Shown here: positions 26,804 through 28,365 of the stretch, one piece after another | Position numbering within the stretch: position 1 is the first letter of the stretch | How the letters are laid out: the number at the start of each line of letters is the position of its first letter | Assembly: GCF_030295705.1 (NCBI RefSeq) | Contig: NZ_AP027274.1 | Location: 1,612,001-1,676,000 of the forward strand | Direction of reading: 5' to 3' | DNA: 64,000 bases | DNA from: Polynucleobacter sp. TUM22923 | GTDB lineage: Bacteria; Pseudomonadota; Gammaproteobacteria; Burkholderiales; Burkholderiaceae | Translations under genes and position numbers: made by a program | Notes under the pieces: model-generated | Database searches by the model: none | The model's input: only the letters and a program-made list of their open reading frames with translations | Told to the model about the DNA's origin: nothing

Positions 26804-27232
26804 TTAGATCTCTAACGCTTTTGGCTGTTGAGCCGCATGCGGATGACTGGCGTCGCCATAGACTTTCAATTTCTTGATCATGGCATAGCCTAATGGGCCT
26901 TTTGGCAACATACCCTTCACAGCCTTCTCTAAGGCGCGACCTGGAAAACGGTCTTGCATTTTGTCGAAGTTAGTCGAGCTAATACCGCCTGGGTATCCAC
27001 TGTGACGGTAATAAATTTTGTTCAAGCCTTTTGTGCCTGTGACACGCAGCTTAGAAGAGTTGATGACAACAATAAAGTCGCCGGTATCAACGTGTGGGGT
27101 GTATTCAGGTTTATGCTTGCCGCGTAGACGGAGTGCCACTTCACTGGCGACACGACCGAGGACTTTGTCCGTAGCGTCAATCACGAACCATTCATGCACT
27201 ACCTCATGGGATTTTGCAGAAAAAGTTTTCAT
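26804..27232 (-). CDS. rplM: 50S ribosomal protein L13
   Basis: L13 (142 aa) is intact. It begins [19 protein letters not shown] and contains the conserved [14 protein letters not shown] and [11 protein letters not shown] segments. The mRNA leader upstream is about 140 nt if the TATAAT at 27378-27383 is its promoter. The ATG is preceded by a modest AAGAAA rather than a strong SD. Confidence 0.99.
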
Positions 27233-27377
27233 GATTTCTTAAATTGTTATAGTCAAAAAATACTCCAATTAAGCTACTTCTACCTTGGCCCTGCTTATAT
27301 TTGCAAGCTCGCAGATTCGTTAACTTCATCGGTACAACAATCGCCATTGACTAGATGGCAACTCAGTAAAGCCTTAA

Positions 27378-27383
27378 ATTATA
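27378..27383 (-). promoter_or_regulatory. Possible -10 box for rplM-rpsI
   Basis: A perfect TATAAT on the minus strand lies just past the T-tract of the small-RNA terminator. It would give an rplM leader of about 140 nt. No good -35 is visible at 16-18 bp spacing, because that stretch falls in the terminator stem, so the assignment is tentative. Confidence 0.3.
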
Positions 27384-27387
27384 ACCC

Positions 27388-27416
27388 AAAAAAAACCCAG
27401 GAACGAGTCCTGGGTT
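27388..27416 (-). terminator. Rho-independent terminator of the candidate small RNA
   Basis: A perfect 9-bp stem (AACCCAGGA/TCCTGGGTT, 27394-27402 with 27408-27416) with a 5-nt loop is followed on the minus strand by an unbroken run of T (8 As on the plus strand, 27388-27395). It cannot serve rplM, which lies downstream, so it must end a transcript that begins within the gap. Confidence 0.88.
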
Positions 27417-27493
27417 GGAATCCACTTATGTTTAAGTGGAGGAGACACTGGGAGAAAACCAAGTCTTATACAAGACTAACTTTCAATATGAAC
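27388..27493 (-). ncRNA. Candidate small regulatory RNA with anti-Shine-Dalgarno tracts
   Basis: The 401-base gap between rplM and the OsmC-family gene holds a self-contained minus-strand RNA of about 100-106 nt. Reading 5' to 3', it has three parts. Hairpin 1 has a 6-bp AGTCTT stem with a GTAT loop (27477-27462). A 21-nt unpaired linker (27461-27441) contains UUUUCUCCC and GUGUCUCC. Hairpin 2 has an 8-bp TCCACTTA stem with an AACA loop (27440-27421). Last comes an intrinsic terminator. The linker joins hairpin 2 as UCUCCUCC, complementary to SD sequences. I recall a betaproteobacterial toxic small RNA family and Burkholderia ncS27 with CUCCC motifs, and this may be a relative. No convincing ORF overlaps it. 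Confidence 0.75.
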
Positions 27494-27522
27494 ATTGTAC
27501 CTATAAATATGGTGCAACGCAA
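27494..27522 (-). promoter_or_regulatory. Promoter of the candidate small RNA
   Basis: On the minus strand, TTGCGT (27522-27517) and TACAAT (27499-27494) are separated by 17 bp, predicting a start near 27487. An alternative -10, TATAGG (27505-27500), predicts a start at 27493. That start would place the FNR-type palindrome exactly at -41.5. Confidence 0.6.
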
Positions 27523-27527
27523 GAAAC

Positions 27528-27541
27528 TTGATTAAAATCAA
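27528..27541. promoter_or_regulatory. FNR-type palindrome TTGAT-N4-ATCAA
   Basis: The 14-mer TTGATTAAAATCAA matches the FNR/ANR consensus TTGAT-N4-ATCAA in all ten defined positions. It lies 5 bp upstream of the -35 of the small-RNA promoter. Its centre is -41.5 from a start at 27493, or -47.5 from a start at 27487. It could also act on the OsmC-family gene, whose ATG is 93 nt away. No fnr gene is in the window. Confidence 0.6.
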
Positions 27542-27633
27542 CTTTATGCTGCTTTTTAACCAAAACAAGGATGTAATAAAATTGATAAACTATTGATAAT
27601 ATTGATTAATTTAGTAAGTAAGGGGTCACTAAT

Positions 27634-28056
27634 ATGGAGTGTAAAGTTTCTTGGCTAGGTACGGATGGCATGGCTTTTTCAGCCGAAACGGGTAGTGGCC
27701 ACCTTGTAAATATGGATGGCGCTCCCGAGGCTGGTGGCAGAAACCTGGCCCCAAGGCCTATGGAACTGCTGTTAGCTGGTGCCGGTGGATGCTCAGCGTT
27801 CGATGTGGTGTTAATCCTTCAGCGCTCTAGACAGGCCATTACAGCTTGCAATGTCAGTCTTCAGGCGGAGCGTGCCAGTGAGGACCCTAAGGTCTTTACC
27901 AAAATCAATCTGCACTTTCAGGTTACCGGCAAAGATCTCGATGCCGCTAAGGTGGATCGGGCGGTGAAACTGTCTCATGAGAAATATTGCTCGGCGACTG
28001 CAATGCTAGCCAAAACTGCTGAGCTGACCTACAGCGTTGAGGTCATTGCGGAATAA
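27634..28056 (+). CDS. OsmC/YhfA-family protein
   Basis: This 140-residue protein has the OsmC fold, with two conserved cysteines in the GAGGCSAFDVV and KYCSATAMLAK segments. OsmC/Ohr relatives reduce organic hydroperoxides using such a cysteine pair, but the YhfA-like branch, which this resembles, has no settled substrate. An SD-like AAGGGG lies about 10 nt before the ATG. Upstream, three ATTGAT repeats (27581, 27592, 27601) sit in an AT-rich stretch. The stop codon is only 2 nt from the 3' end of the convergent RNase P RNA. Confidence 0.88.
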   Translation: MECKVSWLGTDGMAFSAETGSGHLVNMDGAPEAGGRNLAPRPMELLLAGAGGCSAFDVVLILQRSRQAITACNVSLQAERASEDPKVFTKINLHFQVTGKDLDAAKVDRAVKLSHEKYCSATAMLAKTAELTYSVEVIAE

Positions 28057-28058
28057 GT

Positions 28059-28365
28059 GCAGAGTCAATCGATAAGCCGGATTCTGTCGCCCAGATTTGC
28101 ATCTGGGGGCAATCATTCCTCTAGGCCGGCAGTTACCTGACGGCTCAAGCTCCCTACCCGCAGACTCAGCGGGTCGCCTCATCGCCTGCTTACTTGGGAT
28201 TGCTCCAGGTGGAGGTTACCGCGTTTCACCGTAACTAAATACGCTCGTCTCTGTGGCCCTATTCCTCACGTCACCGTGGATGGCCGTTAGCCATCACCCT
28301 ACCCTATGGAGTCCGGACTTTCCTCCCCCTCAATAAAGAGGCGGCGATTGCCCAATTGACTCTGC
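28059..28365 (-). ncRNA. rnpB: RNase P RNA, bacterial type A
   Basis: The minus strand carries the universal RNase P core: GAGGAAAGTCCGGACTCC near the 5' end, GGTGAAACGCGGTAACC and CCTGGAGCAA in the middle, and ACAGAATCCGGCTTA near the 3' end. The ends form a perfect 11-bp P1 helix (GCAGAGTCAAT at 28059-28069 with ATTGACTCTGC at 28355-28365), which sets the boundaries to within a few bases. At about 307 nt it is shorter than the E. coli RNA (377 nt), so some peripheral helices must be reduced. This fills most of the gap between the OsmC-family gene and pyrC. No intrinsic terminator fits in the 2 nt before the convergent OsmC gene. Confidence 0.97.

Follow-up and report, generated by a model that had tools for sequence, protein, structure and literature searches.

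A predicted small RNA of family RF02278 in Polynucleobacter sp. TUM22923 carries a PhaR-type dyad on the -35 element of its promoter

The stretch of Polynucleobacter sp. TUM22923 DNA analysed here (64 kb, hereafter the window) contains, on the minus strand between rplM and a gene of the OsmC family, a member of the Betaproteobacteria toxic small RNA family (RF02278), and a dyad that fits the published PhaR core overlaps the -35 element of its promoter. The element was confirmed as real and as beyond chance. We consider it likely that it specifies a trans-acting RNA of about 100 nt acting on ribosome binding sites, that its transcription is putatively repressed by PhaR at the -35 dyad and freed by polyhydroxybutyrate (PHB), and that a Crp/Fnr-type factor may provide a second input. 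The RNA family and its mechanism were already known; what looks new is the proposed regulator, that is, the PhaR-type dyad on the -35 element. Family membership, conservation, the dyad with its spacing, and the genes for PhaR, an Fnr-like protein and Hfq were computed here; PhaR binding at this promoter, the PHB signal, any effect of FNR and the targets are inferred.

In line with the first-pass annotation, which had proposed a minus-strand unit at this place, the gap between rplM (26804-27232, minus strand) and the divergent OsmC-family gene (27634-28056, plus strand, NF008009) was found to hold, on its minus strand, a promoter, three hairpins and an intrinsic terminator. The predicted transcript of about 100 nt (27388-27487, minus strand) was delimited from the fold and from a start inferred 7 nt past the -10 element. 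Its parts, all on the minus strand, are a 5' hairpin termed A (AGUCUU....AAGACU, 27462-27477; 87.9% of cells paired among 65 relatives), a linker of 21 nt with two CU-rich tracts (UGGUUUUCUCCCAGUGUCUCC, 27441-27461), in which GUGUCUCC is open, a hairpin termed B that, from the family model and the genus alignment, equals hairpin 1 of the family (27421-27440), and the terminator (27388-27416), which a terminator scan resolved into a hairpin at 27394-27416 plus a T-run. No other terminator was found in 27200-27660, where 0.3 were expected from shuffles, and no gene lies upstream of it on the minus strand, so that it serves no annotated gene, as had been claimed. The -10 element TACAAT (27494-27499, minus strand) stands 17 nt from the -35 element TTGCGT (27517-27522, minus strand), both read from the sequence, and the -35 region as a whole is TTGCGTTGCA. 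The promoter described earlier is thus present with its spacing, but TTGCGT agrees with TTGACA at only three of six positions, and a promoter scan of the locus did not include this promoter among those it reported. Solely a 113-aa ORF overlaps the promoter, and we take this ORF as spurious. The -35 element overlaps the PhaR-type dyad TGCGTTGCA (27513-27521, minus strand), which fits the consensus YGCRNYGCR (PMC12542648, PMC3206438), and an FNR-like palindrome (TTGATTAAAATCAA, 27528-27541) is centred at -47.5 relative to the predicted start. Directly downstream of the OsmC-family gene, we also noted RNase P RNA, class A (28057-28363, minus strand, 241 bits).

The suspicion that the RNA belongs to the betaproteobacterial toxic RNA family was borne out by a search against Rfam, in which the full RF02278 covariance model (positions 1-64) matched 27387-27447 on the minus strand with 53.3 bits, above the curated gathering score of 50; the E value over the whole window was 6.9e-8. 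The window RNA is a new RF02278 member, from a lineage with an altered loop and leader. Anti-hemB RNA (RF02837) gave a weak overlapping match of 26.3 bits, far under its cut-off of 49.5. The TUM22923 genome (1.86 Mb) contains one RF02278 match. Matches were present in 128 of 151 congeneric genomes (112 of the 117 good ones; 94 of the 151 over the cut-off), in 107 of 120 genomes of the family (1 to 7 each) and in 158 of 250 genomes of the order (93 over the cut-off; 89 of 120 genera), the three draws overlapping in part. Among the 138 loci of the genus, 116 lay between rplM and osmC as in the window, six had rplM without an osmC match, one had osmC only and 15 had neither.

The architecture of RF02278, a UGUCUCC tract followed by two hairpins of which the second is the terminator, is present in the window RNA. 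Its hairpin 1 has UUAAACAUAA in place of the CU-rich loop of the family (consensus CUCCUCcUG), one anti-ribosome site thereby being lost; this CU-rich loop is a consensus feature, not an Rfam criterion, and the score still exceeds the cut-off. The loop is of the AAACA type in the genus alignment, some congeners (e.g. L002) retaining CCCUCC, and the window RNA has, instead of the loop tract, a second CU tract upstream of UGUCUCC. The 110 nt at 27388-27497 folded better than all 200 dinucleotide shuffles (z -3.5). The linker had been described as 21 nt long and unpaired: its length stood, and GUGUCUCC was predicted to be open (unpaired probability 0.91), but UUUUCUCCC reached only 0.55 and the linker as a whole 0.69, part of it pairing with the 5' end of the predicted 100-nt RNA. 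Alignment across the genus showed the GUCUCC tract, the stem of hairpin B and the terminator to be almost invariant among 65 distinct RNAs from loci with an FNR box, hairpin A being less conserved. Covariation was weak, as most pairs in helices 2 and 3 never vary and controls slid by +1 and +3 scored higher.

Translational repression by RNAs of this kind has been studied in relatives. Burkholderia cenocepacia has four homologues, the double-hairpin RNAs ncS03, ncS05, ncS27 and ncS62, among which ncS27 has 92 nt, with processing possible; its overexpression slows growth, the complement of its CU region having the opposite effect (PMC5688073). The window RNA shares with these RNAs the two 3' hairpins, the UGUCUCC tract and the terminator; unlike them, it occurs in one copy, has lost the CU-rich loop of hairpin 1, and has an extra 5' hairpin, a CU tract beside UGUCUCC and an FNR-like box upstream. 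According to a preprint on S17 of Bordetella pertussis (PMC11722255), this RNA is pulled down together with Hfq, undergoes RNase E cleavage close to where its CU-rich loop begins, directly represses a sigma-54 activator and shows complementarity at or near the ribosome binding site in 70 of 92 affected genes, without toxicity to exponentially growing Escherichia coli. S17 resembles the window RNA in its promoter (-35 TTGCAT, -10 TACTAT, 17-bp spacer) and in the conserved 5' region of its short form, and differs from it in a 190-nt long form and in Bvg-linked expression (PMC11722255). Northern blots have revealed related RNAs in both Burkholderia and Bordetella (PMC5688073, PMC11722255), and further papers bear on the mechanism in relatives (PMC4603805, PMC7011215, PMC10987360). 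Thus, by analogy with S17 and ncS27, the repression of SD-led mRNAs by the CU-rich tract that had been proposed for the window RNA is well supported, though not new; for S17, the Hfq dependence, the processing by RNase E and one direct target come from the work of others, and a processed short form of the window RNA may exist on the same model. The TUM22923 genome contains an hfq gene. A duplex ranking over 57 putative genes of the window, the starts of which were guessed by a script, gave no clear target list, with GGAGACA near the start in two cases and GGAGA in six. Predicted pairing with the leaders of three phasin genes, phaB, phaR and fnr ranged from -9.8 to -19.1 kcal/mol, values that stand without a control and come from partly interrupted helices; neither analysis was counted as support for particular targets.

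The dyad recurs at the promoters of these RNAs. The core YGCRNYGCR was present upstream of the RNA at 96 of 121 loci of the genus, 59 of 70 of the family and 38 of 62 from other families of the order, compared with shuffle means of 1.0, 6.6 and 5.1 (maxima 3, 13 and 12), and four permuted cores were found at 0 to 7 loci. Likewise, TGC-N3-GCA occurred within 120 nt upstream of UGUCUCC in the genus at 100 of 121 loci, in the family at 52 of 70 (12 of 15 genera) and in other families at 38 of 62 (34 of 51 genera), with 3.1, 4.4 and 4.3 loci in the respective shuffles; all of these counts are inflated by kinship, as the rows share descent, and the shuffles (30 to 200 per test) ignore it. When the spacing was altered, N2 was found at 1, 1 and 3 loci and N4 at 0, 1 and 5 (genus, family and other families), and N1 (14/121, 9/70 and 11/62) and N6 (24/121, 11/70 and 16/62) recurred too. 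Between the dyad and the best -10 element lay 13 or 14 nt in the genus (97 of 126 sites) and 13 nt in the family (47 of 53) and the order (21 of 42), where 14 sites had no clear -10. An RNY centre was seen in 96 of 126, 52 of 53 and 37 of 42 sites, respectively, and the core was absent from 25 of 121, 11 of 70 and 24 of 62 loci despite persistence of the RNA. The 121 genus loci are the 138 minus 15 weak paralogue loci and two with short upstream DNA; the family and order loci comprise the best-scoring ones plus 80 places chosen for spread, not at random, with five order loci dropped as having no recognisable core and two same-family loci left out. At 13 other-family loci (L246, L250, L256, L260, L263, L265, L268, L271, L273, L283, L286, L291 and L293), a sequence close to TATTAGATAATTCTAATA was noticed by eye near the -10 element, the dyad at -35 being absent or elsewhere.

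A scan of named genomes for the RNA core alone yielded at least 120 loci, of which the 111 with 200 nt of upstream DNA were counted and nine were too short. Among the matches listed, 81 of these 111 loci had TGC-N3-GCA followed after 12-14 nt by a.A...T hexamer; no fewer than four of them (three from Ralstonia, one from Thiobacillaceae) do not resemble real promoters. The spacings N0, N2 and N4 gave none, and N1, N5, N6 and N7 gave 4, 2, 8 and 2, respectively. YGCRNYGCR was present in 93 of the 111 listed loci (shuffle mean 10.3). The dyad was found at all six listed Bordetella loci, three of which end in TACTAT, the -10 element reported for S17, and at all 11 listed Pandoraea loci. Among the 10 listed Cupriavidus loci, one had the strict dyad with a -10 element, and six more had the degenerate core elsewhere. 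The degenerate-core site in this genus reads CGCAGTGCA in five loci and CGCACTGCA in two (L296, L303, L349, L366, L387, L399 and L402) and lies 145-169 nt upstream of the RNA core.

The TUM22923 genome encodes PhaR (TIGR01848, 164.5 bits, cut-off 109.45), as do 146 of 151 congeners and all 117 good genomes; since PhaR is nearly universal in the genus, loss of the dyad cannot be tied to loss of PhaR, and a phyletic test is uninformative. The genome contains six exact TTGCRNYGCAMCA sites (none for the reversed pattern used as control), four of them inside long ORFs, and the two outside likely genes fall in the promoter of the RNA and in that of a phasin gene, 96 bp before the start of the latter. 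Among the four phasin genes of the genome, one has a dyad with the full core and a second has TGC-N3-GCA minus the RNY centre; the dyads within 100 bp from the start of these two genes are at 595353-595361, 595404-595412 and 930450-930458 (G000:C1), only the first with the RNY centre. The two remaining phasin genes had no dyad within 100 bp, and no TGC-N3-GCA was seen near the phaR locus. Among plasmid phasins (17 of 31 records), identified with phasin L179 as the query, a strict dyad was upstream of seven of 17 genes (12 sites, excluding one at L427 that falls within an annotated gene), compared with shuffle means of 2.3 genes (maximum 7) and 2.5 sites (maximum 8), and the degenerate core was found in nine of 17 versus a shuffle mean of 4.8. 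The GCACCA tail of the RNA promoters was present in three of the plasmid phasin cases with a dyad; phasin L175 as query gave no match against the plasmids. None of six Cupriavidus phasins had the strict dyad. PhaR of Ralstonia eutropha is said to use unrelated 12-bp repeats (PMC3206438), and phaP2 of Cupriavidus necator H16, though reported as unbound by PhaR (PMC12542648), has a degenerate-core match (CGCAGTGCG).

Dyads of this kind have been described at PHB promoters of other bacteria. PhbF of Herbaspirillum seropedicae, a PhaR, binds eleven PHB-gene promoters with the MEME motif TG[N]TGC[N]3GCAA, which the footprint at the phbF promoter covers (PMC3206438), and the PhaR palindrome of Sinorhizobium meliloti contains YGCRNYGCR, one of its sites being TTATTGCATTGCACAC at phaP2 (PMC12542648). 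These promoters resemble that of the window RNA in having a dyad of the TGC-N3-GCA type at or near the promoter, and differ in serving mostly protein genes. PhaR of S. meliloti also binds mmgR efficiently, a gene for a small RNA tied to PHB (PMC12542648, PMC8401924). MmgR (an alpha-r8 RNA) is an Hfq-dependent small RNA that is repressed by AniA/PhaR and has a PhaR-bound dyad, features that have a counterpart in the window RNA, where the links to Hfq and PhaR are predicted; it is alphaproteobacterial, however, and the likeness to RF02278 concerns regulation. In the literature covered, mainly open-access papers, no link between the RF02278 family and PhaR or PHB was found.

The first-pass annotation had cast the RNA as a candidate for anaerobic control; on this view, FNR at the upstream palindrome would be its main regulator in this genus. 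The dyad, which is the more widespread site, does not figure in that annotation. This palindrome is perfect and is the sole exact FNR-type box in the 64 kb, fitting TTGATNNNNATCAA; the pattern TTGA[TC]N4[AG]TCAA was present at 81 of 121 congeneric loci, and in 80 of these 81 exactly 5 bp separated it from the downstream TTGC of the -35 dyad, whereas its distance to the osmC start fell into two clusters (91-95 and 101-106 bp, 80 loci). The constant spacing to the dyad favours the box as serving the RNA promoter rather than osmC. The genome also encodes an Fnr-like protein with a CxxCx5C motif, which scored 223 bits against the 228-bit cut-off of NF008365, and the gene adjoins an iron-sulphur gene that we read as ccoG-like. 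Where an FNR orthologue was present, 70 of 94 genomes had the box, compared with 10 of 22 where it was absent (five loci with only a weak FNR match were left out), but this also means that an orthologue is missing from 10 of 81 box-bearing genomes, two of which (G016 and G135) have no PF13545 hit at all, and that 24 genomes have FNR without the box. FNR usually activates from -41.5 or about -61.5, and the centre at -47.5 is neither of these positions. Outside the genus, the box was found at 0 of 70 family loci, 1 of 62 order loci and, among the matches listed, 2 of 111 named loci. As box and FNR do not strictly co-occur and the box hardly appears in other genera, we treat anaerobic control not as the main explanation but as an alternative that we hold to be doubtful, although the box and an Fnr-like protein stand. 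Just upstream of the box in L014, L031, L033 and L042, there is a further palindrome (e.g. GTTGCATAGCAAC or GCTGCACAGCAAC), which resembles the second site of the TUM22923 phasin promoter.

A different objection accepts the RF02278 RNA and concerns the reader of the dyad, which could be another regulator with PhaR-like specificity or a mere feature of the promoter. The position of the dyad on the -35 element would fit this explanation, as would its absence from the phaR locus of the same genome, the single strict dyad with a -10 element in the listed RNA loci of Cupriavidus, a known PhaR genus, and the modest enrichment at plasmid phasin genes. However, sigma-70 requires no fixed sequence in the spacer, which holds the GCA half, the spacing and the RNY centre agree with the published PhaR core in nearly all family and most order sites, the degenerate-core site is present in seven of the 10 listed Cupriavidus loci, and the dyad is common to the RNA promoter and a phasin promoter of the same genome, all of which makes this explanation unlikely in our view. 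That hairpins and dyad serve the neighbouring genes only, with no functional RNA, is highly improbable given the family match, the genus-wide conservation, the Northern blots of related RNAs and a terminator without an upstream gene on its strand.

We return to the repressed small RNA as the preferred explanation. The locus would give rise to a trans-acting small RNA of family RF02278 of about 100 nt, the exposed UGUCUCC tract of which would pair with ribosome binding sites of the GGAG type and reduce translation of a set of metabolic mRNAs; a cut immediately 5' of the tract, like the one in B. pertussis S17, may free it, and Hfq may help. PhaR bound to the TGC-RNY-GCA dyad overlapping the -35 element would hold transcription down until accumulating PHB granules titrate it and the promoter is released. 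In this genus, a Crp/Fnr-type factor, plausibly FNR in most species, may add a second input via the box 5 bp upstream.

A dyad with the PhaR core on the -35 element in many genera names a candidate regulator for the B. cenocepacia RNAs and for S17. In B. cenocepacia, the regulator of RNA accumulation was stated as still to be found, and an upstream motif common to three of the four RNAs was reported (Fig. S3), the accompanying passages giving no regulator for it (PMC5688073); this motif may be the PhaR-type dyad, in which case the motif may already be in print (Sass 2017), though not its assignment to PhaR. The amounts of ncS03, ncS05 and ncS27 increase in glucose medium and starvation (PMC5688073), which, by analogy, would be compatible with PHB accumulation without testing it. 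For S17, an unnamed repressor was postulated, and PhaR is not named in the abstract, the first part of the results or the discussion (PMC11722255). Extending the proposal to the order, we lean only slightly towards the view that RF02278 RNAs of the Burkholderiales, S17 and the double-hairpin RNAs among them, largely form a post-transcriptional arm of the PhaR regulon, in which PHB would titrate PhaR off the -35 element and the RNA would cover ribosome binding sites and stop uptake and catabolism. PhaR would then be the repressor postulated for S17, the wiring of PhaR to a small RNA would be found twice (also as MmgR in rhizobia), and an oxygen-type input 5 bp upstream would be present in this genus. 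If true, carbon-storage status would be joined to translation control across an order of plant symbionts, freshwater bacteria and pathogens.

Two further elements were observed in congeneric genomes. In part of the genus (L126, L127, L129-L132 and L134-L138), there is a second conserved RNA-like element starting with TGTCTCCTCGGTACCCAG that matches RF02278 weakly (28-31 bits); the stretches read around it contained neither an rplM nor an osmC match. Four congeneric genomes (L123, L124, L125 and L128) contain elsewhere a paralogue-like element beginning AGTCTCCTCCAT, with 31-38 bits.
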